Shown here piece after piece: positions 9,986 through 62,110 of a stretch of DNA of 64,000 nucleotides. Below the pieces are notes generated by a model. The model saw nothing but the letters and a program-made list of their open reading frames with translations, ran no database searches and had not been told where the DNA came from. The translations under genes and the position numbers were made by a program. This stretch comes from Sphagnum magellanicum (Eukaryota; Streptophyta; Sphagnopsida; Sphagnales; Sphagnaceae). The stretch covers positions 18,496,501-18,560,500 of the forward strand of contig CM038908.1 of assembly GCA_021904315.1 (NCBI GenBank), written 5' to 3'. Position 1 is the stretch's first letter, and every line of letters begins with the position of its first letter.

Positions 9986-10829
9986 GGAGAGACAAAATGA
10001 AACTCAGTTTACCACCAAAATTCTTGGAAAAACCAGTCTGGGTACCAATTATTATTTCGTTTTGTAAAATTTTCATTCCCAGTTACGTGTTTGATGCCCT
10101 ATTATGCTGAAACTGACTCCGTTCTCGCCCCCTAATCGCGGGATCTTACAGATAATAAAGTTATGTGTAATTCTATTGTGTGTTCAACATGCTAAATGTG
10201 TGTTAAACAGGTATGGATGAACATAGAGGGTCAAGGGATGGACTGTGTCTCGGGTTGAATATGGTAGTAGCACCTTTAGAGAATCTTTTGGACTATGCAA
10301 GAATACTTTATTTCGAGCGTGGAATCTTCAAAATTAATTTATTTATTCAACAGACAGACGTGTTGAAGCTGCCCATGTACTACATTACATGAGATCAGAC
10401 CATTATCAATTATATCCGATGCCAGGATTCAGAACCCCACAAGCAAGCATATGGGTTATATGCATATGACCCACAAGCATGGGCCCTCAAGCCTATGGGT
10501 TATATATGTATATATAACCCACCCTAGAAACCTAAAGGAAAAATCTTTCAAGGTTTTTTCTTTTTCTTTTGACAATAGAATACAGCACCAAAATGGGTTG
10601 TTAATCCTTCTTGAAGATATATATGTACACAGCCGGGACTTGGCATATGAATAATGCACAAAGACTGAATCATTTTGAACCCCGTACATAACCTCCAGAA
10701 GTGTGTGGGCTGAGTTCGTATTGGTGTGCAGGAGCCCAGATGATGATGTTTGTATCCCCCCAAAATATGCCACCAATCCCCCTGACACAACAATACATTG
10801 TTACAAAGTATGTTCAGAACTTTGGTTCA
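9986..10829. other. Intergenic sequence with two small AT-rich palindromes
   Basis: No gene recognised. Two adjacent short palindromes occur near 10452-10471 and 10497-10520, the second with 11-bp arms (gggttatatat). They could extrude as hairpins but resemble no terminator or RNA gene. Confidence 0.5.
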
Positions 10830-11142
10830 CCATCCAAAATCACATATTGTCATACCATCCAAAATCACACATCATCATCCCATCCAAAATCACACATCAT
10901 CATCCTGTCCAAAATCACACTTCATCATCCCATACAAAATCGCACTTCATCATCTCATCCAAAATCACACCATCATCATACCCTCCAAAAATCACACATC
11001 ATCATCATCCCATCTAAAATCACACATCATCATCCTGTACAAAATCACACTTCATCATCCCATACAAAATCACACTTCATCGTCCCATCCAAAATCACAC
11101 CATCGTCATACCCTCCAAAATCACACATCATCATCCCATTCA
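10830..11142. repeat. 25-bp minisatellite with higher-order structure
   Basis: About a dozen copies of a unit close to catcatcccatccaaaatca. The unit variants (cctgtcc or cctgtac, ccatac, tcatcc or gtcccatcc, accatcatcatac) recur in the same order twice, giving a higher-order period of about 125-130 bp. Overlapping His/Ser-rich open frames in all three plus frames are artefacts of the repeat. Confidence 0.9.
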
Positions 11143-11767
11143 AAGGAAGGGGATCGGGGGTTTGCACCAGCATTACAACATTCACAAGATACCCGTGGAT
11201 TGGCCAGCTATAGGGGATTGGAAGACTGGATGTGAAATTGTGATTCCTTACTACATAATGGGATTTAAGGGCCACAATGAACCAGCACCATCCACCAGCG
11301 CACCATCCACTGGATGCCCATTATTGCTCAGTTGTGGATGAACCTCAACTGAGTTAATATTTGGTTTCACCTTGGTAACCAATTCTGTAAGAAATAGGTC
11401 TTATATATATAGGTAGATAGGTAGGAAAATAGGTCATTATTGAGAAAATAGATGGCTTATACCTAGGTAATGCTTGTTTTTACTACCTACTTAGTAACAA
11501 CCTGCTTGTGGGTTGTTAGTAAATAAGTTGCTTAAAAAAAGCAACCGAGCTAACCACCGTGGTTAACTAGGGAACTGGAACCCAACAGAAAACTGTTTCC
11601 TGACCACTTACCATCCATCCATGCTGCTGGTTGCTGGTTCACTATGGACAGATTTAAGTTCTCAAGTTGCTTCAGGTCCCTGCCTTGATACCCGGAGGGT
11701 ATCACATAACTTCCTCATGTCTGTGAAGCTGCATTGTTAGATCATTCATTAGATATTATAGGGATTA
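11143..11767. other. Intergenic sequence, no gene recognised
   Basis: No supported feature. Confidence 0.5.
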
Positions 11768-18885: not shown

Positions 18886-18962
18886 ATGGATACATAGTTC
18901 CAAACCTTTTGTAATACTTTTGTTACATAATCATAATTGGAATAGTGGTCATAATTACTATA
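18886..18962. repeat. Left arm of an inverted repeat around a gypsy fossil
   Basis: The stretch ccttttgtaatacttttgtt, with the following acataatcataattggaata and gtggtcataat, is the imperfect reverse complement of 20268-20335. The two arms enclose 1.3 kb that contains the Ty3/gypsy remnant. Confidence 0.65.
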
Positions 18963-19104
18963 GAATATGTAATTGCAATGTTAGTCACAATGCTATCAAT
19001 ATGATATCAATGTATTTCCAAGAATGTATAGGAATTTGATCATTCTTGGAATAGATTCAAGAATGAACAAATTCTTTTGCATTGTCATATGTTATTAATG
19101 AAAT

Positions 19105-19745
19105 TATAACCTTATGTGGTTTATTGTGATGTTTTGAAAAATGCAATGGGAAACATATTCTTTCAATTTGAGGAGGACAGTGATGATCATTTCATTCTTT
19201 TTATTAGTAGACAATTGATTGTTATAGATAAGATTTACATGATAAATGAACAAAAAGGTCTTTGTAGTCATCTTCTTGTTGAAAAAGTTTCATCATTATT
19301 TGTCAGAGTAAAAAGCCAAGGTTATGATTAACCACAAGGCATTCACATACTTTGTTAATAAATTCAACCCAAATCAAAGGCTTGCATGATGCTTGTTGTT
19401 AATGGAAAAGTTTGACCTAAATATTGTTCATTACTCAATAAGGCACCATGGGAATGTGCATGCCCTTTCAACGGTGCTGGACTTGGAGATCTTTAGAAGA
19501 TGATGAGTTCCCATACTCTAATTTGATGAACATTAATGTGGAAGAGGCATCAAAAAAATTCCAAAACATCATTCAATACTTGGATGACATGATGTTTCTA
19601 ACATGGGTTATGAAACTAATTCACGAGGACAAGGATTGTGCACAAGATTTGAAACTATTCAATCCTTGGTAATCAATCATATCATGAAGGTAACTATGGT
19701 GTTTTGAAGAATGTAGGAGGAAATGATGTTCATCGATCATTGCAA
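19105..19745 (+). pseudogene. Ty3/gypsy polyprotein fossil (RNase H region)
   Basis: Plus-strand frames spell a decayed RNase H domain of a Ty3/gypsy retrotransposon. First comes DVLKNAMGNIFFQFEED, then HFILFISRQL and IDKIYM at 19116-19260 (in intact elements an Asp-initiated segment with an F-S-K/R-L motif). After a frameshift it reads VMINHKAFTYFVNKFNPNQR around 19320-19385 (family consensus TDHKAL), then a stop. It continues with LLLMEKFDLNIVHYS and HHGNVHALS near 19390-19475 (consensus ADALS). Further decayed sequence runs to about 19745. A near-repeat of 19030-19100 occurs at 19795-19870 (ttcaagaatga, catatgttattaat-like). Stops and frameshifts make it inactive. Confidence 0.75.
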
Positions 19746-20267
19746 TAATTTCCTAATGAGTATAAAAATATATGTCAATGTAGAAAAGTTTGTTCCTTCT
19801 TGAATCTATTTCAAGAATGATCAAACTCCTTTACATTGACATATGCTATTAATATATTTCCACAAATTATAACAATATAACAACATTCCCTCTTCACAAT
19901 TTTATGAACACTGACTTGCATTCTAGCAATGGAACTAAAAATGTGGAATTGAAATGGGTTAACTAAACCAAGATTGAGTAGTTCATTACACAATCATGTA
20001 AACCTATGTTTTACTTTTGCAACATCACCACCTTATGTGGGAATCTCTTATTTCACATAACAACAACATCAATAAACCTTTTTACAGAAGCCAATTTTTA
20101 TTATCATGTTACATATGCTCCCAAGTCAAATGCCAAATCATTCCAAATTCACATTTTAAATATAAAAGGAAAATGGACCATAGCAATTGTGGTCATAATT
20201 AAGGTGAGGATTATTCCAATTGGCAGTTACTATTATGATTACAACTTGTATTATTTCAATTACAACT

Positions 20268-20335
20268 ACTATATTGATTATGACCATTATTCCAATTACA
20301 ACTATGTAACAAAAGTATTATGAAAGGTTTTGTTG
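20268..20335. repeat. Right arm of an inverted repeat around a gypsy fossil
   Basis: Imperfect reverse complement of 18886-18962; shared landmarks are attatgaccattattccaat and atgtaacaaaagtattat. Confidence 0.65.
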
Positions 20336-33748: not shown

Positions 33749-36700
33749 ATGGATTGGAGACGGCAACAAGAACAACAAACCCACAATAACAATAACGATA
33801 GAGGAGGAACTAGAAGGATGCGTCCTCTGGTGGACGAGCAGGGAGGAGGAGGTGCTGCTGTCGGTGGTCCTCGTCCTCCGGGAGGAGGAGGAGGAGGAGG
33901 AGGACAACAACAACAACAACAGCGAGCAGGAACTTTTGCTAGGACGCGAGCCAGTGATGAGGACGATGGCGGTTCCGAGCGCTGGAAGAGAGTGAAGGTA
34001 GACGGAAGAGAGTACGGGTTGCGTGGGAATTGGGAGTTGGATTTTTATAGGGATCGTGCTGCTTGGGAAGTTGGGAATTCGCAATTGGGAGAAGGGGGAG
34101 CGACGACGATGGCGTTGGGGATGATGGGTGGTGGTGGTGGGCAGGTGATGAGAGACGATTCAGCTGGACGGAGTCGAGAAGCTGAGAGGTTTAGTGGTGG
34201 AGTGGGGAGGGGACAAGAGTTGGAGAGGAGAGGAGGAGGAGGAGGAGGAGGTAGCAGGAGGATGCGGTCGCCCGAAGAAGTGGTGCTGCAACATGAGTCT
34301 GAGAGAGATGAGAGTAGCAGACGCAAGAGGTTGAAGCAAGAAGAAGGGCTGGGGAACGGCGGCAGTGGGAGAGGGAGAGAAATGGGATTTGCAAGTGAGA
34401 GAGACAGAGACAGAGAGAATGGACGTGATCTTCGCATGAGGGATTATGAGAGAAGAGGTCCTCATCTCGAAAGGGATGGATTCAGAGGAGGAGGAGGAGA
34501 AAGAACGGTTTTCAGGCCGCCTCCTCCTCGACTCAACAGAGAGGGAGACAGCAGAGAGAGAGGAGGAGGAGAGTTCCAAAGAGACCGATCGAAAATCAGG
34601 GAGAAAGACAGAGTAGGAGGAGGAGAGCCACGGAACGGGGAGCAGAAGAAGAAGATGGAGCAGCCAGCAGCAGCAGCAGCACCACCAGCCAAAGAGAGAA
34701 GGGGTGAGGAACAAGCTCGGAAGTACCAGCTGGAGGTTTTGGAACAAGCCAAGGTGAAGAACACCATTGCTTTTCTAGAGACAGGTGCAGGGAAGACTCT
34801 GATAGCAGTGCTGCTCATGAAGCACAAGTATGAAACCATGAGGCAACAGAATCAACGCATGCTGGCTGTTTTCCTTGTACCCAAGGTTCCCCTTGTTTAC
34901 CAGGTAAAAAAAAATTCTCTCTCTTCTCTTTCAAAGAAGAAGATCATCATCATTGTGAGTTCAACCCACCCATTCGACCGAATGCTGTCACATGACATCC
35001 ATGAAATTGTCACCCTTCAGATCCTTACTCTCATCATCCCACATTCAGCAGAGATGGAGAAGAGAATTCTTCTTGTACAGATAGATTGAAGAGAAGGTTT
35101 TTTTTTGCAGTTTGTTTTTCTGGGTTTGGGGTTTTTTGCTGATGGTTTCTCTCTTTTTTGGCCTCTCTCCTTTCGGGTTTGTGTGTGTGTGTGTGTGATT
35201 GTGACTGACTGACTATTTGCAATGTGGATGGCAGCAAGCGGAGGTGATTCGTGAAGGCACTGGATACCATGTTGGCCATTACTGCGGAGAAATGGGTCAA
35301 GATTTCTGGGATGCGAGAAGATGGCAACGGGAGTTTGATACGAAAGATGTGCGTAAAAGATGTTTCCCCATTTGAAAAGTCTGATCAAATGTTCAGGATC
35401 ACCATTATTGATCACTGTTTGCTGACATCCATTTCAGTTTTCTTATAAGTCTTACATTTGATGATGATGATGATGATGATCTTCTTCTTACAAGTCCCTT
35501 TTTGATGATGGGACTTGCTGAATCATCATCATCTTCCATGGCCCAAGCAGGAGAATCTGAAAAAGAACCAGGAATGCATGTGAGAAAGAGGAGGTGATGT
35601 TGTTGTTGTTGATGGGGGAGCATGTGTGCGTGTGTGCAGGTTCTGGTGATGACTGCGCAGATATTGTTGAACATTCTGCGGCATAGCATCATACGAATGG
35701 AGGCTATTCACTTACTGATTCTTGATGAGTGCCACCATGCAGTGAAGAAGCATCCGTATTCATTGGTCATGTCAGAATTCTACCACATCACAGCCAAGGA
35801 GAAACGACCGTGTGTCTTTGGCATGACTGCATCCCCTGTCAATCTCAAAGGTATGAAGGCAGGTTTTGAACTGTTTTTGAGGTGGTCCGATCACATCCAT
35901 CGAGTGTCAGTCAAAATGAAGAGCTCAATTTGTGAAGTTGAAAGTCTAGGAAGAAACAGTCTGCTGCTGTTTTTGTGGATTTTGGCAGCTGATTAGTGTT
36001 TTGAGGACAATATCGGGAATCACCAAGTTGACAATTGTGGTACTGGGCATCATATGAGCTGTGCAGGAGTATCGAATCAAGAAGATTGTGCAATCAAAAT
36101 TCGTAATCTGGAGAGCAAGCTGGACTCGATTGTGTGCACAATCAAGGATCGAAAGGAGCTGGAGAAGCATGTACCAATGCCCTCTGAGACGATGGTGGAG
36201 TATGATAAACCGGTACTGCTCTTCTCATTACGGGAGCAAGTGAAGCGGATGGAAGTAGCTGTGGAGGAAACTGCGAATTCAAGTCAAAAACGCAGCAAGT
36301 GGCGCTTCATGGGTGCTCGTGATGCTGGTTCGAAAGAAGAGTTGCGGCTGGTGTATGGTGTGTCTGAGAGGACCGAGAGTGATGGAGCAGCAAGCCTGGT
36401 CCAGAAGCTGAGGGCTATAATATATGCTCTTGATGAGCTTGGTCAGTGGTGTGCTTACAAGGTTAAGACATATCCCCTGTTGCCCTGGAGGACATAAGAG
36501 AGTTGTTGTGGTGTCCTGTTCATTGCAGGGACTTTGAGAATCTGGAAGTTGTCAACAAATTGTCCACAGTTTTTCCAGGATGGTTTTCTAGAGCTTTCAG
36601 AGTGTGAATGAACGGGATGATAGATCCTGGCACAAGACCCAACACATGATAGATGATGGATGGTGTCTAATTGTTTTTGTGTGGATTTGCAGGTGGCGCT

Positions 36701-39700
36701 GACATTTCTTACGAGTTTGCGGAATGACGAGCGGGTCAATCATCAGCTGGACGTAAAGTTCCAGGAATCCTATCTGAGGAAAGTGTGCATTCTACTGCGA
36801 TGCAATTTAAGTGAAGGGGCTGTGGGGAGTAATAAAGATGCAGCTGATATTCTTGGAAGCCAGGGTGATGAGGGTGAGAAGCTGGAAGAGCCTATGGATG
36901 TTGAGGAAGGGGAGCTTCCTGATACACAAGGTTTGGACACCCTTGATGCCCTTTCAGCTTCTCTTGCACTTGATATATCTTTTAGTGGCAAGCTCATTTG
37001 CTCTATGATCTAAATCTATGCACTAATTCTGTGATTGCAGTGGTTTCGGGAGGGGAGCATGTGGATGAGATTCTGGGAGCAGCAGTAGCAGATGGAAAAG
37101 TGACACCTAAGGTGCAGTCACTGATCAAGATTTTGCTTCGCTACCAGCACACTGATGATTTCCGAGCGATTATTTTTGTGGAGCGTGTAGTTGTGGCTCA
37201 GATCCTTCCCAAGGTACATAACAAGAGTTTGCCAGGTCTTGGATTTTTTTTCTAATGTTGTTTTCTTTGCCAGTTGTGGGAGTAAGAAAATGAGTCATGA
37301 TTCTGTTACGTTGTTCAGTAGAGGAGGATTTCACCTGCTGCTCTGCAGAGAAGAATCCCATCAGGCCAAATCCATGAGGTTGAGATGACTTGTGGTGACT
37401 AAACGTGGTGGTTTTTTGCAATTGGGTGTGGGTTTTTTTTTTTTGCAGGTTTTTGCAGAGTTGCCATCACTGAAGTTCGTGAAATGTGCCTGTTTGATAG
37501 GGCATAACAACAATCAGGACATGCGGACAAGGCAGATGCAGGAGACAATCTCCAAGTTCCGAGATGGACGGGTGTGCTATTCTCTTGGTTTAGTGTGAGC
37601 TTTCCTGGGGTGTAATTGATTGTTGTGGGTGATGGTTATCTGACAAAAGCCTGATAAAGCTTCTCTGGATTACTAGGTGGTCTTTGATGACATAGGCCTT
37701 AACTCTCAATGTTTTTGCTTGAGTTAACGCCAGTGTGATCAGTGATGACCTAGTGGCCCACCTGGGTACTACTTTTTCCTCTATGCAAAAAAGACATCTG
37801 CGTGGAAGGCTTCTGAGTTTCTGGGTATCCAGGTTTGCCCCTTCATCATGTGGTGGGTTCTTTTGTGTGGCATCCAAGTTTTTGTCATCAATGGCAGGTT
37901 TGATATGTCGGATGCCATAATCTGACTTCATATCTTTTTTTTCCCCTGTCAGAGCAACCATCTGCCTCTTGTGTATTGGTGTGGTTTTTCTGCAACAATT
38001 GGGTCTGTGTGGTCCAGCTTGCAGCACACAAATCTCTTGATTTTCTAAAACCCTGAATGTTGTCAGGAACTGCCCCCAATTCACTTATGCTCCTCTCTCA
38101 CACTTCCTTGGTTGATGAAGGAATTTGCATGAAAAAAGGTGCCTTAAAAAGACACATTGTACATGATGAATCAGGAGTTGCTATGTTTCTGTGAGGTTAT
38201 GTATCATGCTGAATTTCCTATTTGCAGTTTTGGTGATTGTTCTCTTGGTGGGTCCTGAGGTTGAAAGTTGGTTGAGCCTAGGTGACATTGCTGGTGGCAA
38301 CAAGCGTGGCAGAGGAGGGATTAGACATTCGCCAATGTAATGTTGTGATCCGGTTTGATCTTGCCAAGACTGTGCTGGCCTACATTCAGTCACGTGGTCG
38401 TGCGCGCAAGCCTGGCTCAGATTATATACTGATGCTTGAAAGGTAATGTGCCAGATGATGTCTTCTGGTGCTGCCTCTACTCTTTTAACATATTGTTGAT
38501 AGGTTGCTGCACATGAACACTTCTGTATTCTCATAGGAATTTGACCCCTCTGCTAAGCACTGTTGGAACCTCCTGAACCTTAGGCATAGTTATATGATTT
38601 ACAAAGGCAAGACTCTGGATGTATGTGGTGGTTGTGTAGAGCTTTCTGATTGGATAATCACAATTGAGATATGAGATTGGCTATGTGTTGTGAGATGTTG
38701 TTGTCAAATAAAAGCATGCACAGCTGCCCTTGTAGTAAACCCTTATGTCTCTTCTAAGTCTGGAAAATGCTTGGTGTCTGGTTTTGCTTGGGCAGGGGGA
38801 ATTTGACACATGAGGCTTTCTTACGCAATGCACGCAACAGCGAAGAGACTCTTCGGAAGGAAGCTATTGAAAGAACTGACATTGGGTCTTCAAGGGAGGC
38901 TGCAATACTGGCCTCCATTCAAGGTGTGGAGGGTGAGATTTATCAGGTGCCTGCCACGGGGGCAGTGGTGAGCTTGAATTCTGCCGTTGGTCTTGTTCAC
39001 TTCTACTGCTCTCAGCTTCCCAGTGACAGGTTTGTAGTCTGACTGATTTTATCCCATTTTACTTGACCTGCTTGCATTTCTGAGTGGAACTATTTCTGCA
39101 TGCTTTTAATTTTTTACCATTGACGCCTTTGATCAGCTATGTTTCTTGAGTGCTAGCCATCACCATGACCCAGTCTTCCTGTGTCTTCTGGAAATGCAAC
39201 AGGTACTCAATCCTGCGCCCTGAGTTCATAATGCACCAGCATGAGAAAGAAGGGGGTGTCATCAAGTACTCATGCAAGCTGCAGCTGCCTTGCAACGCCC
39301 CTCTGGAGACAGTTGAGGGGCCTATCTGTAGTTCCATCCGGGGTGCACAGCAGGTGAACCTGAACTAAGGATCTCATTCTGTCATAGGCTGTATTCCTGA
39401 ATCAAGGAGGCCCATAGAGGAAGATATATACAATAACCAATTATATGGTTTTTTCTGAGGAAATTTAAGTAATGAGGAAAGATTGTCATTTCCAGAAAAA
39501 AGAGAGAGTTAGCAATAGGATTTATTACTCAAGTTACCTGTGGGAAGTGATAAGAAAACACAAGTATATATCTGTTTCTTTTGTTTTTGAAAGTGGTGGA
39601 AAGGCTGTTTATGGACTGAGCTAAGTGTTGCAAGTCTTTTGTGCCACATTTGGTCAATGTGGAATATGTGTTTTGCAGGCGGTCTGTTTGGATGCATGCA

Positions 39701-42700
39701 GGAAACTGCATGCTATGGGTGCGTTCACAGACATGCTTTTACCAGACAAGGGAAGTGGTGAAGAGGCAGCTAAAGTAGATGGCAGTGAAGAGGGGGAGCC
39801 TCTTCCTGGAACTGCTCGACACAGGGAGTACTACCCTGAAGGCATTGCTGAGATCCTGAAGGTGATGGACATATTGAAATTCCTCTCTTTCAGGAGTTCG
39901 GGAAAGTTTTTCCTTTCTTCCAGATTTTTGCCATTGAATCTCAACTTTTATGAGGATGAGATTCTGACCTGAATGAGACAGGATTTTGCTCATATATCTA
40001 GAATCCATGTGTCACTGTGTCCTATGTTTTATCACCACAATTGGATGATGAATGTGATAGGAGGAGCTCATATGGTGTTTGTTGACAGGGTGATTGGATA
40101 TTAGCTGGAAATGATTGGGAGGCAAACAAAATGAGCAAGGTGTCGCTTTTTGTTTACAAGGTGGAGTGTGAAAATATTGGCTTCTCCAAGGATCCGCTTC
40201 TGACTGAAACATCAAACTATGCAATTCTTTTTGGCCAAGAGCTGAATTCAGAGGTGAGTACTTCTGGTTTACTGTTTGGGTGATGTGCTTCTCTCAAAGC
40301 CATTTTATGCTCTTTGTTAACTGAAATCTCAAGACTATGTGAAGCTCTGTAGGACAACAGCACAATGTTCATGAAAAGCCGCATGATATGGAACTGTGAC
40401 CTGGAGGAACTTCAATGCAGTAGCTCATGAGTTTGTGTTTGTGGTTTCATATGGCACCTTGCAGGTGCTAACAATGAGCATGGATCTATTTGTGGCAAGG
40501 ACCATGACCACAAGGGCATCTCTTGCCTTTTGTGGGACCATTGAGATGAATATGAGTGAGGTATTGAGCTGCTGACAGCTTAAGCAATTTTTCTTGGTAG
40601 CTTGAAGGACCTATGAAGTAAGGCCAAGAAGTTGGTTGATATAGCAGAAGTTTGAGTCTGACCCATTCTTGTCGTGAAAAAGCCTGGCTGGATTGCTTGA
40701 TTTGTTGTGGGTGTTGGTTCTGCAGTTGAATCTGATCAAGAGTTTTCATGTGAGGCTCATGAGCATTGTCCTGGATGTGGATGTGGAGCCAGCCACAACT
40801 CCATGGGACCCAGTGAAGGCTTATCTTTTTGCACCCATCTTGGAAAAACCTTCTGATGCAGCTGCAAGTATCCTGGATTGGTCACTAATACGAGGAACAG
40901 TCACTACAGACTCTTGGAACAATCCTCTACAGCGTGCACGACCTGATGTGTACTTGGGGACAGATGAGCGTGCTCTTGGTGGCGACCGAAGAGAGTATGG
41001 GTTTGGAAAGCTACGCTATGGTTTGGCCTTTGGACAAAAGGCACATCCGACTTATGGGATCCGAGGAGCCGTTGCCCAGTTTGATGTTGTTAGAGCAACT
41101 GGGTTACTGCCTATTCAAGATGTCCTAGAAACCGAAAAAGTGCAGGAAGTCGCTCCTGAGGGGAAGCTTCTCTTGGCTGATGGTCTTGTTGACACTGAAG
41201 GATTGGTTGGTAAAATTGTTACAGCAGTTCATTCAGGGAAAAGGTTTTATGTGGATTCAGTACGCATGGACATGAATGCAGATAGCTCATTTCCTCGAAA
41301 AGATGGCTACTTGGGTCCCTTAGAGTATACCTCATATGCCGACTACTACAAGCAAAAGTAAGTATATATGTGGGAACTGTCTGTATGTGCATCCTGAGAA
41401 AGAGCTTTGTGGGTATTGAACTTGTTGCACTGGTGACTATGGAAGTCTATGTGATTATCACCAAGTGTTGCCTCCTTGAAATTGGGTATATGGTTGGCTA
41501 GTCTCTATGTGTTTGTTGCTTGTAGCTCAGGTTTTTAGGGTTTTAGTGTTTAGGATGGGGCTGTGGCTTCTTATTTTGAAGTTGAATGCAGAATTGATGT
41601 CTGGTGAGGGATGTATGAATTAATTGGGGTGCAGATACGGAGTTGAGTTAGTCTGTAAAAAGCAACCTCTGCTCAGAGGCAGGGGAGTTTCTCACTGCAA
41701 GAATCTTCTTTCACCTCGCTTTGAAACTGCTGAGGGTATGTTGTTTCTTCTTGAGCTTGAAGTGTGGATCATTTGGGTTAGAGAAAATGATTTTCTGTTT
41801 TAGTGTGTAAGGTTTTTGATTGGTCTACAGTGTATAGCTGAAGTTGCGGAGGTTTGTAATAGATTCATTCGGAGGATGTGTGAATCCTGGTGAAATCTTT
41901 GCAGGTGGGACAACCAGTTCACTAGAGGCGTTAGACAAGACATATTATGTCATGCTGCCACCAGAATTGTGCTTAGTGCATCCACTTCCAGGACCCTTGG
42001 TGCGGGGAGCACAACGTCTTCCCTCTGTGATGAGGCGAGTGGAGAGTATGCTGCTAGCAATCCAGCTCAAGCATGAGATTGCATATCCCATTCCTGCTAT
42101 TAAGGTCAAAAAACTACTTGCACCTATGTGTTAACAACTATGATAGAAATGTTTGTGAGACTGCAGAAGAGAACAGAACTAATGAGGTTGGATTTGGCTA
42201 TTGCCATGGTTGTGTCTTCCTACACTCACACCTAATCTGCTGTGCTGTGCAGGTGCTTGAGGCACTGACAGCGGCTTCTTGTCAGGAAACTTTCAGCTAT
42301 GAACGAGCCGAACTGCTTGGTGATGCATACTTGAAATGGGTGGTGAGTCGAAGGTTGTTTCTAAAGTTTCCAAGCAAACATGAAGGGCAGCTGACACGCA
42401 TGCGACAGCAGACTGTCAGTAACTCTGTGCTCTACCAATATGCCTTAGAGAAGGGGCTTCAAAGCTACATTCAAGCAGATCGGTTTGCTCCATCACGATG
42501 GGCAGCACCTGGTGTGCCTCCTGTGTTTGATGAGGATACAAAGGATGGGGAAGAGCTAGACAAACGGAAACTGCCTACTGAAGAAGAGAAGAGAAAAGCT
42601 GAACAACAGGAACAAGAGGAAGAAGAAGAGGAAGGAGAGGAAGGAGAGGTGGAAACAGTTGTAGAAGTGGTGGATGATGATGATGCAAGCAACATGGAGG

Positions 42701-44722
42701 ATGGAGAGATTGAGGGTGATGCAAGTGCCTATCGGGTACTTTCGAGTAAGACATTGGCAGATGTGGTTGAAGCTTTCATTGGTATCTACTATGTGGAAGG
42801 AGGCCAACCTGCGGCTACCCATTTGATGAACTGGATAGGGATTCCTGTTGAATTTGATGCCATAGATGGAGAACAGGCACAGGCCGGTTGTCAAGTTCCT
42901 GAGACCGTGTTGCGAAGCATTGATTTCACAGCAATTGAAAGTTATGTTGGCCACCAGTTTCGGGAGCGGAGTTTGTTGGTGGAGGCTATAACACATGCCT
43001 CCCGTCCATCTTCAGGAGTGCCTTGTTATCAACGGCTCGAGTTTGTCGGGGATGCAGTCTTGGATCACCTCATCACCAAATACCTTTTCTTCAGCTATAC
43101 CGACCTGCCTCCTGGACGGCTCACAGACTTAAGAGCTGCAGCCGTGAATAATGAGAATTTTGCCCGTGTTTCAGTGAAGCATAAATTTCACCTCCATTTG
43201 CGTCATGGTTCTAGTGCGTTGGAGACTCAGGTAATTTTGCTGCAAGTTTGTGGGTTGGAAATCTGTCTTAAACTGATGCACCCAAATCTCAGAAATGGAT
43301 GTTGTGGGTTGTGAAGCAGTATCAAGTATCATCTCAGACAGTATTTGAGGCAGTTTTTTTGAACTATGATATGTGTTAGATGTTCAAGTATTGAGTTTTG
43401 TAGGAATATGACATATTTTGTTTCCAGATTCTGCTTTGTGGTTTGAGTGAGGCATGTTCGTAGATTTGCAAAAGTTTGAGAAGTAATGGGACTCTGTGTA
43501 TCTCCTGAAGTGTCCCAGTGATTCCATTTCACCTGTGTGTAAGATCATTTGTTTGACAGTTGACAGCTGATTGCTTGCAGATCCGTGATTTTGTGAAAGA
43601 CATTCAGACTGAGCTTGATAAGCCTGGAGTGAATTCTTTTGGGCTCGGAGATTTCAAGGCTCCAAAGGTGCTTGGGGATATTTTGGAGTCCATAGCCGGT
43701 GCTCTTTTCCTGGACACAGGCCTGGACACCAATAAAGTTTGGGAGGTGAGTTTGGTTTGTTTATTAAGCCTCTTCTCTCACCGTTTCTGTCCAGCTCTTC
43801 TGGCAATTTTGTTGATCTACCAATGAGGTTACAAGTTGCATCTTGGTGTCATAAAGTTCACTGCTGTGTTGTGGAATTTAGGTTTATGATAACATTTTCC
43901 TTTTATGTTTCCTGGCCAACAGGTGTTTGAGCCACTCCTACAACCAATGGTGACACCAGAAACATTACCCATGCATCCAGTGCGTGAACTGCAAGAACGC
44001 TGCCAGCAGCAAGCAGAGGGCCTGGAGTACAAGGCCACACGAGCAGGCAATGTGGCGACTGTGGAGGTCTATGTAGATGGGGTGCAGATTGGCTCAGCTC
44101 AAAATGCACAGAAGAAAATGGCTCAGAAGTTGGCTGCACGCAATGCACTCGTGATTTTGAAGGAGAAGGAGGTGATCAAAGAGCAAGCTGCAAAGGATGC
44201 TGCTGGTGAAGCTGGGGATGCCAACAACGGGAAGGCCAAAAAAAATGGGAATGCCCCCTTCACACGACAAGCACTGAATGACATCTGCTTGAAAAGACAA
44301 TGGCCAATGCCACAGTACAAGTACATTTTTTTTCCAGCCTGAATTCTACTTTGTTCTATTCTCTTATCCATGATCAGATGGGTACAGGATCAAATGCATG
44401 TTTTTGGTTTTTTGTGTCAACAAAATTCCTTCACTCATCTTCTTAGTGGATCAGATTGCATTTCTGCTCATGATGCATTGCTGCGGTATTCTGGTTAGAG
44501 TAGGAAGAGTGGGAAGTAGTGCTTTTTAAACAGGCCCAATTTCCTTACAGGTGTGCTGCAGAAGGTGGACCAGCGCATGCTAAGAGATTTACATATTCAG
44601 TGCGAGTGCACACCACTGACAAGGGGTGGACAGAGGAATGTGTTGGAGAACCGATGCCAAGTGTGAAGAAAGCTAAGGATTCAGCTGCAGTGCTATTGTT
44701 GCAGCTCTTGAAACGCGGGTAA
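33749..44722 (+). CDS. DCL1: DICER-LIKE 1, microRNA-processing RNase III
   Basis: Nuclear endonuclease that cuts pri- and pre-miRNA into about 21-nt duplexes, normally with HYL1- and SE-type partners. Twenty coding exons keep frame: 33749-34903, 35235-35348, 35640-35850, 36067-36461, 36693-36930, 37041-37213, 37449-37571, 38282-38442, 38796-39029, 39203-39353, 39679-39861, 40089-40253, 40465-40560, 40726-41357, 41635-41735, 41905-42104, 42253-43230, 43581-43745, 43923-44320, 44551-44722. Predicted 2014 aa (Arabidopsis about 1909). An Arg/Asp/Gly-rich N-terminus (1-330) precedes the helicase: ETGAGKT 344-350, DECH 452-455, MTASP, and QSRGRAR 839-845. Then follow DUF283, PAZ (roughly 1150-1380), RNase IIIa ([11 protein letters not shown] 1461-1471, with an acidic insert about 1543-1596), RNase IIIb ([10 protein letters not shown] 1705-1714) and two dsRNA-binding domains (about 1843-1908 and 1938-2012). 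All catalytic motifs are present. All introns are GT-AG. Intron 7 carries a miRNA-like hairpin. The start is the least certain point. Confidence 0.96.
37666..37760 (+). ncRNA. MicroRNA-precursor-like hairpin in DCL1 intron 7
   Basis: Inside intron 7 (37572-38281, among the longest in the gene) the sense strand folds into a long stem. Bases 37666-37705 face 37760-37721 with no bulge: 29 Watson-Crick pairs, 5 G-U pairs and 6 isolated one-base mismatches over 40 positions. A 2-nt bulge (37706-37707), two further A-U pairs and a 9-nt loop (37710-37718) follow. Evenly spread single mismatches and a small loop are what plant MIR precursors look like. A 21-nt duplex such as 37685-37705 with its partner has only three mismatches. 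In the moss Physcomitrium, intron 7 of DCL1a carries MIR1047. I recall that fact but not the mature sequence, so homology is inferred from position only. Expression is unknown. Confidence 0.65.
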
Positions 44723-50833: not shown

Positions 50834-51177
50834 CTTCTCAAGCTAGGCAGCCGTCGACACACTCTTCGTCTGTTTGTCACGGATGATCTCGTCAACTTTC
50901 CAAACGAGTCGTCTGCGATGTGGGAAGGACTAATCCTCTGTGGCGCCGTTGTTCACCAAAAGAATGTGAGTGAGAGCAAAGTGGAAACGAGAGATGGGTT
51001 TCAGGCCTGCTGGTTCTATGCTACAGCTGGACCTCAGATCACTCGACGACGCGCTTCCTGTGTTGTTGTGGCCCCGAGGTCTCATCGCTGTGGCGCCTGG
51101 AGGAGGACCCCGCCATCTCCAGGCGCGTCGTCTCCTCCTCCTCTGCCCACAACCCGCCGCTTTGCCGGCTATTTCGT
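50834..51177 (-). promoter_or_regulatory. RAB2 5' flank and probable leader
   Basis: Moderately GC-rich block immediately upstream of the RAB2 start codon, distinct from the AT-rich sequence beyond 51480. It probably holds the leader and core promoter. No individual motif can be assigned with confidence. Confidence 0.4.
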
Positions 51178-51382
51178 GTCATGTCTTTTGGCCCGTCATT
51201 TTGCCGGCCGTTTCTTTGTCATGTCTTTTGGCCCGTCGTTTTGCCGGCCTTTTCTTTGTCATGTCTTTTGGCCCTCGTCGTTTTGCCGGCCTTTTCTTTG
51301 TCATGTCTTTTGGCCCTCGTCGGTTTGCCGGCCCTTTCTTTGTCATGTCTTTTGGCCCGTCGTTTTGCCGGCCTTTTGTCCT
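51178..51382. repeat. 40/42-bp minisatellite, five copies
   Basis: The phrase gtcatgtcttttggccc or ggccctcg recurs at 51178, 51218, 51258, 51300 and 51342 (spacings 40, 40, 42, 42). Each copy ends in ttttgccggcc or a close variant. It sits about 350 bp upstream of the RAB2 start. On the RAB2 strand it contains an open frame (51400-51179, 73 codons) with a GPKDMTKKRPAKRR peptide repeat, which I regard as a by-product. A poly-C/CCT tract (51414-51445) follows. Confidence 0.9.
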
Positions 51383-51445
51383 ACAACCCCCAAGTTCCAA
51401 CTTTATTATATGTGCCCCCCCCCCCTTCTCCCCCTTCCCCTCCTC

Positions 51446-52871
51446 TCATTTTTTGTATCGAAAATTTCGTGAATTTCTTTAAAAATTAGAAAAATTAGTC
51501 AAATTTACAATTAAAAAAAAACCTAATGAAAGGATCACAAACTTAATTGATCATAAATAATAAAAAATTGAATTCTTAAACATATCATTATCCCAATAAA
51601 TTACAATAAACATTAATTTTGTCACAAGACATGCACAAAATATATATTTTAGTATGCTTATTCATATTATAGAACATGTGTTATATAATAATGATGTGAT
51701 GCATAAAACTTAATCAAGTTATCAAAATAAAATTTTAATCAAAAATTTACAAAAAGAAAGTAAGACATTAAAAAAAAATAGTTCATCTTTTTCTTTTTTT
51801 TTTGGGTTCATTAATTATTTTAATTATTTTTTTCACATAATGCACACATAATAAGGTGAATATCACTTGGTGTGTAACATTTTAAGTGAGTGCAAATGAC
51901 AACGAACGAAGAAGAAGAAAAAATATGTGCATGTCTAAACATAGAAAACTCATTATTGTTCATATGTCAATTGACATGAAATGTTGAAATAACCTTGATA
52001 AAGATGAATTTCGACCAAAGGTTACTGACGACATAATGCAATGTGTAACATATAATAAATCCTTTCATTATTTACACTGAGAATAAAAGCATTGGAAAAG
52101 CAAGAAAACAACAAATATCATTACGGACCAAAAAAAAGAGATTTTGAATGTTGTTGAAGTGAAAGCCACTAATTTATTCTTGTATGAAATTGAAATCTGT
52201 TCAATGTATTTGCATTCAATTCCAATTCAACAATTGGATTAAGATTCAATTAAAAACAAATGGTATGCAAATTGGTGGAGAATGTATTCAACATTTTTTT
52301 TTATGAATATTATGTTTAAAAAAAAATTTAATACACAAATATAAAAAGACACCTTTCCATGCCTCTTCACTTGGGAAATGGGCTAAACAAATTTCAATTT
52401 GAAATTGTTCAATCTACAATAATTTGAGGAAATTAAGGTTTATCCTACCTAAACCAACTCTAATGAATCATTGTCATTAGAATTGAACATGAGTTTTGAC
52501 ATTATCTTTTGCCACCCTTTTACGCATGTCCAATCTCCTATGCAAACAAAATTGAAATTTATCTTTTTAAAATTATTGGCATACAACCTTGCACACATTC
52601 ACACAAAATATTACACAAAAGCAAAAAAAATGTTGCATGAAAAAATATGGGTGTTGCCCCATGCACAAAAATGCACAAGTCCAAAAAAACCTTAACCAAA
52701 GTGATGAATGAATACAAGCTCTAAGTTTCAATAAGGGAGGAGGAGGAGGAGGAGGAGGAGATTCCTTCTCCAAGCCCTCCTTCTATTACTTCTACTTTTA
52801 AGGCCACCGCCACCACGAATTGATATAACCCTTCCTCCTACTACCAAGAAAATAACCATAAAAAATGAAAA

Positions 52872-53725: not shown

Positions 53726-56106
53726 TCAATCACTTTTGGGGATGATCTTTGGCTTCCGCATAGTCCTGCTGAAGGGCCCAACAGAGGGATCTGTTATGTA
53801 TTTGTAAATTACATGTGTCCATGACGTATGAAATGCAAGATGGTCATAAAACTCCGGGGCAATTTGCCGCACCTTCACAAGGCAGAGAAACAGTGCAAAT
53901 GAGTATGCGAACCAACTCTTGGCAGAATGGGATATTTTTGTGATCTATCTATCAACTTGTGTAACTTAAGAACATGATTTGAACAAGAAGAGTTTCTTTT
54001 TCTTTTACAGCCTCTAATATTTTCACCTAGAAGCCAAAATTGACAATGGGTTGAGCAGAGACCCCTGTCTTCAGAAGAAGGAAACCTCCAAAAGAAAAAA
54101 AGAGGCTCACCCTGTACAGTTTACATCCAGGAACTCGAGGGAAATCATGGTGTTCAACATGATACCCAACATTCCAAGTCAAGAGGTTAAGAGGCCCATA
54201 ATATGAGTACGTCTCCTGACCCTTCATGAAGACATAGTGCTCAGCTATGAAGTGGCCAGCAACTGGGTGCATGCCTCCCCCAAGAAATGTTGAAAGCACC
54301 AAATAGACCAATGCTTTCCATCCAGAAAAGTAAACCAGTACAGCATCGAATCCCAATTGGACGATGAAGTTGGAGGCTTCCCATAATCCTGGAGTCTTGG
54401 GGTTCAGAAAAAGGGGCCGGAGCGCGTAAAAGAAGAGCTGGCAAATGACCCACAAAACTTTCATCACAATATTGGTCACGACACGGCCCTCAGCATAGCT
54501 TGGGATGTCCATGTCAAAGCCTTCCACTCCTTGGAACCGGTGGTGCTCAAGATGGTACTTTTGGAATGTGATGGACATTGGGATGCTCACTGGCAGATTT
54601 GCAAATAAGCCAAGGAATCGATTGTAAATCGGCGTTGAGAATGCAAGGTTGTGGCTTAGTTCATGGATAGCCAGGAATAAGTTGTGGTTCAGAATAGCTC
54701 CAAAGCAGTAGGATACAGCAAGAAGTACAGGCCAACTCACTTCCTGCATATAGGTTGCTGTCCATGTCTGTAGCAACACAACTGCAACAATCTGCTATGG
54801 GCAAACAACAACATAAACCCAGAAAAAATTCAGAAACATGGGTTTCTCTAGATAAGGGGGAGAACCACAAAACAATTGCATTATAATTCTGAAATTCTAA
54901 GTGGTAGAGCCTGTTTGTCTATGTATTGACTTCGTGTTAAGAGTCCTTTTTCTTCAATCTCATCCTCTGTGATGTGTGCTAAGTTATGAAGACAAAACTG
55001 TTGATGGAAAGCATTTCTCAAACACTGCATTTTCTCCGAAGGGTTAGACCTGAAAAAGAATCCTGAAAGGATTTTCTTGTTGCTGCTATCATATGCATAC
55101 ATACACTGGATGTCAATCCCTTCAACTTCACTGGCCAAGATGTAAATTGGTATTGCTAACCATGGCACATTTCCAAGCATATTCTAGCTTCTTCTTACAA
55201 TGTAGTGAGATCAGGAATGCAGTGCTCTGTTTCTGAATTGTTGGCAATGTAGTTCTTTACAATGTATTGTCAAGAATCTGCTCTGTTTCTGAATTCCTAG
55301 CAAATGTACTTGTTTACAATGTAGTGTCAGAAATGCAGTGCTCTGTTTCTGAATTCCTGACAAATGTAGCCTTTTATGATGTGCCTGAGATCTGAAACTA
55401 GTTCAGGAATCAAATGCAAAACTTGCTGGTAAAAATCTGCTGATAGCCCTATCTGACATCTAGTGTAATCATGGATCTGAGCTTCCCAATCAACTCAATA
55501 GATGGATGAGGCTTCCTAATGCAATTCCTCGGTATATAATCTGCTGCGCCTCAGGATAGGTGGGTGTTGCAAACACAGCCCAGAAAGTGCTCTTCTGAGG
55601 TCCAAAGAAGCATGAGACGATTTTCTACTGACCTACATTGTCAGGGACTCTCCGTCCTTTGGAAAACGCATAGCAGATCCCCATACCTGGGCTAGACTCA
55701 AGAAGAAAAAACAGAAATTAAGGGGAGGAGGAAAAAAACCCACTCATTTCAACAACTTCCCTCACAAGACAACAGAAGCAACCAAGCAAGCAACCCAAAT
55801 AAATAAACACAATAAGAAGAAGAAGAAGAAGATTGCGAGTACAGATTCACTCGCCTGCGGTAATGCCCAAGGATCCGGTCCAAACAGCTCACGGATTTCG
55901 GGGTGCGCTGCCAGAATCTGCTTACGCCTGGTTGCATGTGGCTCGTCGCTTTCAGACCAAAAGAAGTCAGTAGCCATCATACTCTTCTTCCGCTTCTGGT
56001 TGATGGACTCCTCCTCCTCCTCTACCTCTTCCCCCGTAGCCGCAGCAGGAGGCGGCACCACTTCCGTAGCTTCAGGTGGAAAGCCTCCATCCCCTCCACG
56101 ACCCAT
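53726..56106 (-). CDS. DES1: Sphingolipid delta-4 desaturase (DES1-like)
   Basis: ER membrane desaturase that introduces the delta-4 double bond into the dihydroceramide long-chain base. Three minus-strand exons, 56106-55855, 54791-54111 and 53872-53726, give 359 aa (Arabidopsis about 332). The N-terminus carries a Gly-rich then acidic extension (EEVEEEEES near 26-34) before the conserved ATDFFWSESDEPHATRR, the DES N-terminal domain. The three His boxes of membrane di-iron desaturases are complete: HELSH 127-131, HLEHH 164-168 and HVEHH 295-299. Hydrophobic segments lie around 85-126 and 188-255. Intron 2 (53873-54110) is GT-AG. Intron 1 (54792-55854) has a GC donor (CAG followed by GCGAGT); no nearby GT keeps the frame into exon 2. 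The start has no competing upstream in-frame ATG with family similarity. A CT-rich leader lies upstream. Confidence 0.94.
55215..55395. repeat. Three-copy direct repeat in desaturase intron 1
   Basis: The phrase ctctgtttctgaatt recurs at 55225, 55281 and 55341 with similar following sequence (ggcaatgtag or gcaaatgtac or acaaatgtag). Intronic and non-coding. Confidence 0.85.
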
Positions 56107-57929: not shown

Positions 57930-60900
57930 TCCACTAGACAAAAGGTAGATCATGGAGGATAGATTGTCCTCTGGTACTGGCAACATGACACAAATTTGGC
58001 TAGGGTGACCGTGTTCGTAGTTTGCATGAGCTCAGCAAGAGTGCTTGTGTGGGTGAGGGGTAGGGTCAAACAAAAGTGTTCCCTAACTTTTTGCATATTT
58101 GGACAGACAAGGAGTAGGTGTTTTTCATCTTCTACCTTCCCCAAGTCACAGCTTCGATAAAGCCTCTTAACGTATGGCACACCTTTCCACACACTTAATA
58201 CTGCTTCAAGTTACATGTTGCCACACCGAAACCGGGCCATAGCTTTCCATAGCTGAACATAGTTGATGCCACACAAATAGCTTTCGCTCTCGTACGACAT
58301 ACCCTTGAAGCACAAGTATCTTATCTACATGTTGGTCTTAATCTTACGGTTGGTAAAAAACTTTTCAATGAAAGTTAGCCACATATTATCTTTCACCTTT
58401 TTTACATTCAACATTATGTGGGGAAATCCTGGAGGGGGTAGGGCCCCAGCCTCCTGGTTGATTGGGCCTCCTATCATAGATTTAACGCCAACCGGCTACA
58501 CTAGTTATAGCACGATTAACTTAACCATTTGAGCTCCCACCCGTACATTGTGTGTGTTGCACCAAAGTACTTGGCTCTTTGCCCAACCTTTTACCCCTGC
58601 AAGAGGAATTGGATGTATGTGCATTATCCTAGGAACCGTTCCTAGCGACAATTGAATAATCCCCACTTAGAGCGCACAGGTCCTTGTAAGCTGAGGCGCC
58701 ATTTCTAGCGGTGGTTGAATCGGAGGTAAAAAACTTGTCACCTCCTAGGGTTGATTTTGGAGTAGCCATTTTTTCACAGATCCAACCTTACATTTCTTTC
58801 TCATAGTAAGCATAATGAGCTGGGCTTCCCATGCCTTTCCCAAGATGCAGTCTTTAGTGACCATGCTCACACGATTATAGTATAGCAACGCTTGTCCCCA
58901 TGCAAAGTCTTCAAAGGAGAATTTGCCAAATTCTACTAGCATGATGAACGTGTTGGTTGTTTTTCGCACCTCGAGCAGGAATTTGAAGAACCCTTAGTAC
59001 ACTATTTCAATAGCCTTTATTTTCTTAAAGTTCACCCAAACCTCACATGCATAACTTGTTGTTGAACGCACCAACGTGTGAAAAGGTCACAACGTAGCTT
59101 AATGTCCATAATACATAGCTTCACACAACGGTGGTTTAGTGCAAATAGCGAACGCTTACTAGTAGCAACTAAATGTTCCACTACACTATCTAGGTTCGGG
59201 GTGGTCTCGAGCAGGATCCCCAGGTATTTGAAGGTTTGCACATGCTCAATAATGTCACTTTCAAACACAAATTTTTAGCATGGGTCAACATAATTGAACA
59301 CCATGACTTTCATTTTTTTCATGTTCATTGTAAATCCATGTTCAGCATAGAACTGTTGGAGTGCGTCTAACTGTTACTCCAGTCGCAACTCTGACTTCGA
59401 TGTTAGAGCAAGGTCATTTGCAAAAAACAATAACCATACATGCATGTCTATTAAGGCCGGTGCATCGCATTTTCTGTTGTCCAAGCACCCTTTAAAACAT
59501 CTAAATATAGCCCAAACAATAAAGGGTTAAGAGGACAACCTTGTTTCACACCTTGTTGGCACTTTAAGCTAGAGGTGACACCCCTGCTTGGGTGGTTGAT
59601 GTGTACGGTATCTTTGAATACATCGCCTATAGGCATCGCAAGAAGCGTCCCTCCACCTTGGGGCCAGCTAACACCTACCATAACACTTCACACGACACAT
59701 TATCGAACATCTTTTTGAAGTCCACAAAGTAATAATAAAGTGGCTTCTTTTTTGCCTTGTTTTGTTTTATCAGAGTTTGTAATATGAAGAGTTGGTCAAC
59801 AATGTGGTAGTATTTGCGAAACTTAGTTTGACCCTTGGCATGCAGCCCATGTTGTTCAGCCCATTCGTTCAACCTTTTGTCAAGGATCATAGCGAACAAC
59901 TTTGCTAAGACAAGCCCAACCGTTATCCCCATGTAGTTGTCAAATTCAAAGGCATTGCCCCCTTTAAAGAACGTGTGGACCACCCCAGTGGAAAGGGTTT
60001 TTGGAAAGCCTTTTGCCATAAAGTAGTTGAACAATGTCAATAGTGGCATGTGTAGCAACTCTCCAACATCCAAAATGAACTCAACTTTCATACCATCCAA
60101 ACCGAGTAGCCTTGTTCCTTCGTAGCTTTTTCAACGCCTGAAGCAGCTCAATAAGTGTGATATTTGTGTTCAGGGTGTGGCTAGGTGGAGGTTTGGTCAC
60201 TTGAACCGAGTGATCAGTTTGCAACCATATGGGTGGCAAAAACGAGCCAATTAGCCCATAGAAGCCTTCCAAAAGCGTAGCTGCACTAATCTTGGGTTTA
60301 GGGATCTATGGGCTGCCCTAAGTTTACTTTCCTAGTGTTTAGTGATGTGTGAATCGGGGTTGGCTTTCAGCCAGAGCTTCAGCTCACGTTACGTTGTATG
60401 GCAGTTAACGTCAAATTAGGGTTTATGGCAATGTTTCTCTCTGCAGCTCCCTCCTAAAGGCTTGTTGTCAAAAGTAGACTTTGTTGTAGCACCCATGTAT
60501 TGTTGTAGTAGGTCAATTAACTTGTCTGCCCCTAGATGCTTAATCAAGTCAACAACCCACATGTTTCCAAGACTCGTTGTTAGGGCAAGTTGATATTTTT
60601 CAGCTTTTGATTTATCATATTTGAACCTAGGCAAAAAAAATTTTGTTACAACCGTATGTTATGGTTCAACAAAACTATAATTGATGTTTAACCGTAGGCA
60701 CAATGACTTGTGGTCAGAGTCTCCTCGCATCACGTAATAACGAGTGTCATCTATTATCACCTCAAGGTGTGTAGCAGTTTGCCAAATGAGCCAATAATAT
60801 AATTGATAGTGCTATGCCCCCCATTTGCCAAGTAAATGAATTCCCCTGATTCATCATTAGGTGTTCGGCCCTTGAGGATGAACAACCTAGTGTCACAGCA

Positions 60901-62110
60901 TAGGTCCAGGAGCTCGCGGCCCTAATCGCTAACACTAGCTTCACGGTTACTCAGTCTTAGCGAGCTTAGGTGCCTGTAACAATTCACAAAGGTTGTTAGT
61001 GTCAATGGTATCTGGTAGTGTTGCAGTATGTGCATTAAAATCCCTTCCCAATAGTATTATGCCCTTTAGAGTTTGAACTTCAACAATATTTGCTACTAGG
61101 TTTTGGAATAAGGATTCGCTTTCGTGTTTGGAGCCAATAGGGGCAACGTACACCACGTAGACAAACAAGTTAGAGGCAGCACCCCTGCTGACCCGTAGCA
61201 ATAGATAAGAATTGTGCCTTCCTTCTTTCCATTGTGACAGGTTTGGGTTAAGGTGGCTACGAAAGTAAGTAACAAACCCCTCGCTATGTTTTATCGCTTT
61301 TGTTTTCCCCAACTGCACAATGCACGTTATCACAAGTGAGTCAAACCTTTCAATGTGTGGTAAATGTTGGTTTGGGAAATGCCAAGTTTCAGTTAATAAG
61401 ACAAGGTTAGCACCCTGAAACAACTCTAGTATTTGAACCCCCATTTCCAGTTTATTTACACCACCCCCGTGCATGTTCCATAATACCACGCATAGGTCTC
61501 TTTGGTCTTCACGCCCTTAGATAAAGGAGGGTGGGCAAATCTGAATGCCATCGATGAAGAGTTTGGCTACGCATTAGAAGGCGCGCTTATTTGCCGCCTT
61601 GGCTTCCTTGAATAACGGCCACAGCTCCAACTTGCGTGCTTGCTGTGTGGGCGTGAGGTTTTCGTCCAGGCCCAACTTGGTCCTTGCTAGGCCTTTGCGC
61701 CCTCGTAGTGTGTAATGGCGGTCTTCGTTCATTGCAAATTTGAGCAGCACCATGCTGGGTAGTGCACTTGTCATGGGGGCGAAGGCCCGCACAGTTGTAG
61801 GCTGTTTGCCGCATGGTGGCAATGACCTTGGCATGCAGCTTCATTTGGCCCTGCGACAACTTTGTGTTGAGCCACTACACCAATTCTTTTTTAGTCTCGC
61901 CTTCCTTGGCCTTGAAGCCTGTGAGGCACAAGTTGAGCTTGCATTCCTTTTGTTTAGGTGTGTCGACCAAGGTTTGCACAACCCAGTTGGCCACCTGACG
62001 CACGTTCTTAGCCATCACCGTGGTCCACTTGGGCTCCTCTGCAGACATAACCTTGGCTATGACAGCCACAGCCACCTCGCGTTTTATTAGCTGGTTGACC
62101 GCAAGGTTGT
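57930..62110 (-). mobile_element. Dead non-LTR retrotransposon (LINE)
   Basis: Minus-strand frames give the domain order of a plant LINE. An N-terminal ORF1-like part at 62110-61574 includes LNLCLTGFKAKEGETKKEL and, in another frame, LRGRKGLARTKLGLDENLTP. An apurinic-type endonuclease follows at 61489-60690 (TETW near the start, GRDFNAHTA where GGDFN is usual). The reverse transcriptase spans about 60300-59000: NYMGITVGLVLAKLFAMILD, KPLYYYFVDFKKMFDNV, QGVKQGCPLNPLLFGLYLD, then FANDLAL instead of FADDLAL near 59410, and FKYLGI. A zinc-knuckle-like C-terminus lies at 58192-57950 (CDLGKVEDEKHLLLVCP). Many stops and frameshifts plus the Asp-to-Asn change at the active site show it is inactive. 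Exact ends and target-site duplications are not visible. Confidence 0.88.

Follow-up and report, generated by a model that had tools for sequence, protein, structure and literature searches.

The window, a 64,000-nt stretch of contig CM038908.1 of Sphagnum magellanicum, holds an intact Dicer gene, DCL1, whose longest intron contains a long bulge-free hairpin on the sense strand. The gene was modelled from GT-AG sites and similarity to Arabidopsis DCL1 (AtDCL1) without transcripts, the start codon and UTRs being assumed, and in this model it has 20 exons, 19 introns and 2032 residues with no internal stop. Two stretches of the protein, of 498 and 839 aa, have AtDCL1 (7eld) as their best match among solved chains (E 5.8e-259 and 0, respectively). 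Elsewhere in the window, the stretch 54027-54794 (minus strand) encodes a portion of a fatty acid desaturase (Pfam PF00487), and weak reverse transcriptase and endonuclease family matches, below Pfam cut-offs, at 59675-61516 (minus strand) probably mark a decayed LINE-like element. Repetitive ORFs occur at 10692-11235 (plus strand), where two frames rich in HPIQNHTSSS-like units reflect a tandem repeat, and at 51000-51480 (plus strand), where three frames carry FCHVFWP-like units. The features of DCL1 discussed below are these:

33749..44722, plus strand: DCL1 gene, ATG to stop, from GT-AG sites and similarity to AtDCL1
37449..37571, plus strand: exon 7, ending ...ISKFRDGR
37572..38281, plus strand: intron 7, 710 nt, GTGTGC...CTAG
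37666..37705, plus strand: hairpin 5' arm, starting 94 nt into intron 7
37683..37703, plus strand: candidate 5p 21-mer, a guess that assumes that DCL1 cuts the stem some 15-17 nt above its base
37706..37720, plus strand: loop region of the hairpin, 15 nt
37721..37760, plus strand: hairpin 3' arm, ending 521 nt before the last intron base
37725..37745, plus strand: putative 3p partner of the 21-mer, with a 2-nt 3' overhang
38282..38442, plus strand: exon 8 of the gene model

The hairpin of intron 7

A first-pass annotation of this DNA had placed a microRNA-precursor-like hairpin on the sense strand of intron 7 of DCL1, and the fold, the gene model counted from the ATG and the AtDCL1 match all agree with that placement. 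Its account of the stem also holds: positions 37666-37705 pair with 37721-37760 over 40 ungapped positions without a bulge, 34 of them paired (29 Watson-Crick and five G-U) and the remaining six being single mismatches (one A-C, five other). The loop of 9 nt that it gave was wrong, since 15 nt lie between the arms, within which the MFE fold places a 3-bp helix and an end loop of 5 nt. Folding against shuffled controls, a check proposed at the same time, gave an MFE of -43.7 kcal/mol for 37666-37760 (plus strand) with a z of -7.2, and none of 200 dinucleotide shuffles was as stable. The antisense strand, too, forms a stable fold (-34.9, z -7.0), as is usual for an inverted repeat; for the whole of intron 7 the values are -220.7 for the sense and -177.3 for the antisense strand. 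Within the fold of the whole intron the stem keeps a mean pairing probability of 0.80 over its 40 positions, against a ceiling of 34/40 = 0.85, and of 0.73 when exons 7 and 8 are added. A test for selection on the sense strand, comparing G-U with A-C in the stem, gave 5 to 1 and was not significant (p 0.11).

Plant MIRNA precursors are recognised by a foldback whose duplex has few mismatches and whose bulges, if any, are small, and DCL1 cuts them about 15-17 nt above the base of the stem. With six single mismatches and no bulge over 40 ungapped positions the moss hairpin has the shape of such a precursor, as had been claimed, and it is a sense-strand hairpin within a DCL1 intron, namely intron 7 of a moss DCL1. 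This intron is the longest of the 19, the next having 353 nt, and if retained it brings in a stop nine codons in (RVCYSLGLV and then the stop).

We read the hairpin as an intronic MIR-type precursor that is cut from the DCL1 pre-mRNA and so provides negative feedback, and give this reading a probability of about 0.6. One form of it, a sub-case and not an alternative, is that the hairpin is the Sphagnum orthologue of MIR1047, inherited from a common ancestor with arms that have since drifted. The earlier statement that intron 7 of PpDCL1a carries Physcomitrium MIR1047 agrees with the literature (PMC3565333, PMC4429486, PMC10721683, PMC10379455), so that the intron number is seven in both mosses. 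AtDCL1 likewise has 19 introns, and its miR162 site lies at the junction of exons 12 and 13 (PMC4429486). The exon 12-13 junction of the moss gene falls between NSE and VLT, within a stretch aligned to AtDCL1 DAEVLS. We take the peptide at this junction to be the one encoded by the miR162 site. Since both genes have 19 introns and the junction coincides with that site, the intron numbers of moss DCL1 and AtDCL1 probably correspond one to one, and because the moss count equals that of AtDCL1 the same-numbered intron 7 is probably also at the same position as intron 7 of Physcomitrium and itself shared. Orthology of the hairpin on top of that of the intron is a possibility that we consider somewhat doubtful.

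Frequency of comparable stems

When the DCL1 gene (10,974 nt) was shuffled 400 times with its dinucleotides preserved, just one shuffle held a stem of 34/40 with a loop of 3-30; in the gene itself the only such stem is that of intron 7. Under a double rule, requiring at least 34/40 paired positions and an MFE of -35 or below, one match was found in the 53 kb of the window outside DCL1 (19765-19849), one in another locus of the genome, L045, and one in the locus of a second Dicer gene, C6. The same rule gave no match in eight 10-kb genome slices, three of which held 32/40 stems with MFE -38.3 to -39.6 and two of which held 34/40 stems of weaker MFE (-22.7 and -28.2). Stems of such quality are thus less rare in real DNA than in shuffles, and the rate in the slices and the non-DCL1 window together, one double-rule match per about 133 kb, predicts about 0.04 matches in the 4.9 kb that the DCL1 introns comprise. 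In a 96-nt sliding scan of both strands of the window the intron-7 hairpin ranked third by raw MFE, below two loci with a G+C of 0.71 and 0.64. For each of the two background hairpins that were checked, similar sequence occurs in at least one further place: nearby and on another contig for that at 19765-19849, and elsewhere (76%) for that of L045. The former is AT-rich, with a 34/40 stem, and sits among nested inverted repeats, 75-85% alike, that occupy 18902-20330 of the window.

These counts bear on the explanation that the hairpin has no function and arose in a long intron by chance or as an inverted duplication that is now decaying. The comparable stems at 19765-19849 and in L045 and the near-comparable ones in three of the eight slices are what it would lead one to expect; intron 7, as the longest, is the larger target, no target was found for the hairpin, and the comparison of G-U with A-C is not significant. 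Against it stand the shuffles and the low number expected in DCL1 introns, the survival of 40 positions without a bulge despite six mismatches and five G-U pairs, and the coincidence of the intron number with that of MIR1047 together with the occurrence of a like hairpin in C6. On balance chance seems rather unlikely to us, and the feedback precursor the better account.

Known MIR loci of the same genome served as controls. The values for the MIR166 loci, seven of seven, range from -0.385 to -0.478 kcal/mol per nt, and in this range lie the intron-7 hairpin (-0.46) and the C6 hairpin (-0.476); the comparison is a rough one because the windows were cut differently, those of the two hairpins being closer to the stem. 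The one MIR390 locus folded poorly, at -0.207 per nt and with no single clean stem in the windows tried, and for this reason a MIR can be neither established nor dismissed from its fold alone. Intron 14 of moss DCL1 (41358-41634, plus strand), the intron that holds MIR838 in Arabidopsis, likewise gives a weak fold (-0.214 kcal/mol per nt). Rfam gave no match at gathering score in the whole window, and a permissive search of intron 7 gave seven weak matches at chance level, the best being mir-964 at 20 bits, where the gathering score is 100. An Rfam search for MIR390 in the moss genome matched nowhere, and neither did its control.

A second Dicer gene, copy number and targets

Searching the genome with the protein of DCL1 exons 6-8 identified two further loci at E below 1e-10, C6 and C19, and no DCL3 gene among the matches at this cut-off. 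The latter is nearest to DCL4 and contains no stem of 32/40 or more. Among solved plant Dicers C6 is nearest to AtDCL1 (8.4e-52; DCL3 follows with 3.2e-40 and DCL4 with 2.3e-38), and since its matches to the DCL1 of the window are mostly 25-60% identical, C6 is a divergent relative. Its hairpin is the following:

C6:11064850-11064952 (L015:851-953, minus strand), on the sense strand of the Dicer gene: hairpin of 103 nt in a 2483-nt intron

Placed by eye and not from transcripts, the splice sites of this intron could enclose one more exon. The hairpin has an MFE of -49.0 kcal/mol (z -7.9 for the inner 95 nt) and a stem in which 38 of 44 ungapped positions are paired, and it shows a mean pairing probability of 0.97 when folded with the first 700 nt of the intron. 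It has a single genome match and, by eye, no clear likeness to the sequence of the DCL1 hairpin. The C6 locus carries another 34/40 stem of weaker MFE (-25.7). What is new here is this like hairpin in a second, DCL1-like Dicer gene. Hairpins in two of three Dicer loci are suggestive and not significant, because the background sample is small, and the pair could be due to chance, since comparable hairpins occur elsewhere in the genome.

The C6 hairpin lies 102 nt behind its 5' splice site and that of DCL1 94 nt. This similarity of position would fit a structural splicing element, a hairpin that shortens or shields a long intron and so sets splicing efficiency without being cut by Dicer, and the donor GTGTGC of intron 7 is not of the commonest form. 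A stem of 40 positions exceeds what a looping element needs, and with such an element the occurrence in a Dicer gene would be a coincidence; we regard this explanation as improbable. A mirtron was rejected, as the ends of the hairpin are not the splice sites: the donor is 94 nt away on one side, and 521 nt of intron follow on the other.

In the whole genome (438,994,042 bases) a 201-base query containing the intron-7 hairpin matched one place, itself, in a search that skips very common words and whose counts are lower bounds; no second copy was found, and a single match for 201 bases is not that of a repeat-derived siRNA locus. A 21-mer of the 5' arm, in one register and with three mismatches allowed, matched 16 places including itself against four for the control. 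Nine of the 15 others are mutually similar repeats that show no relation to the hairpin outside the 21-mer, and the near matches of this arm extend over at most about 18-30 bases of intron 7. Several of the loci concerned (L030, L035, L037, L040 and L041) are mutually similar repeats that have the word TGACATAGGCCTTA in common with the 5' arm, which is likely a coincidence. The 3' arm, also in one register, matched two places including itself, fewer than its reversed control (four), the other place being a stretch with only short ORFs. That the hairpin is a miniature, MITE-like transposon inserted into intron 7, as the resemblance of other hairpins in the genome to repeats might suggest, is very improbable and was dropped, given one good copy instead of many both for the 3' arm and for the query of 201 bases in a search that skips very common words, and near matches of the 5' arm that are short and mostly in unrelated repeats.

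No antisense site for the hairpin arms was found in the DCL1 region at up to five mismatches. Across the three Dicer loci the DCL1 hairpin has one site at a penalty of 5.5 and the C6 hairpin two overlapping ones at 6.0, which lie beyond the end of DCL1; we do not find these sites convincing. A genome search with one register per arm likewise gave no convincing trans target, which for a plant MIRNA gene would count as support and is not part of the definition, and a text search of the literature with six arm words of 14-18 bases matched only an unrelated bird paper.

Proposed self-limitation and known systems

If the hairpin is an intronic precursor, the DCL1 machinery would cut it out of the DCL1 pre-mRNA ahead of splicing, and cutting and splicing would compete. 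A cut would part exons 1-7 from exons 8-20, with loss of the transcript, and an intron 7 left unspliced would lead to the early stop, so that less DCL1 might be made by this route also. Abundant DCL1 would then mean less new DCL1, which amounts to a negative feedback loop. The hairpin may also yield a small RNA, but the loop would not require a trans-acting target, and because DCL1 holds no antisense site at up to five mismatches it is simpler to suppose that the loop acts in cis.

The C6 hairpin suggests that such a loop may extend beyond DCL1. Tentatively, moss Dicer genes could in general limit themselves through a Dicer-cuttable intronic hairpin close behind a 5' splice site, and such a loop might link the two Dicers as well, a generalization that we consider unlikely as it stands. 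The shape and not the small RNA would be what is kept, as the two hairpins are unrelated in sequence and lie in different introns. The Sphagnum lineage split early from that holding Physcomitrium. If the hairpin of peat mosses does act on its own gene, the self-limiting loop of moss Dicer would be either very old or have arisen repeatedly in the same gene. Among the matches listed from the open-licence literature, none describes in its title or abstract a hairpin within an intron of a Dicer gene from Sphagnum.

The closest known system is Physcomitrium MIR1047, which is likewise an intronic hairpin in intron 7 of a moss DCL1; for MIR1047 a mature miRNA has been named and a deletion phenotype reported, which sets it apart from the Sphagnum hairpin. 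Removal of the MIR1047 intron leads to salt hypersensitivity and ABA insensitivity, as related second-hand in PMC10379455 (primary source: Arif 2022). According to PMC3565333, no miRNA targeting PpDCL1a or b was known, which disagrees with the statement in PMC4053937 and PMC5426797 that miR1047 targets DCL1. Feedback through cutting of the pre-mRNA has been proposed for MIR1047 and for Arabidopsis MIR838 alike (PMC4429486, PMC3565333, PMC12825306). The latter, in intron 14 of AtDCL1 (PMC4429486, PMC12825306), thus shares with our hairpin an intronic position in DCL1 and the proposed mode of action, but it occupies a different intron, one that folds weakly in the moss. In Medicago the position of the DCL1 intron 14 hairpin is kept although the small RNAs differ (PMC4833791), and in this respect we count it as a like case, even if the intron is another one and small RNAs have been seen there. 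Finally, a stem-loop in the 5' UTR of AtDCL1 is bound by DCL1 (PMC12825306); both it and the moss hairpin lie in DCL1's own transcript, there in the 5' UTR, with the binding by DCL1 being that of AtDCL1, and here in an intron.
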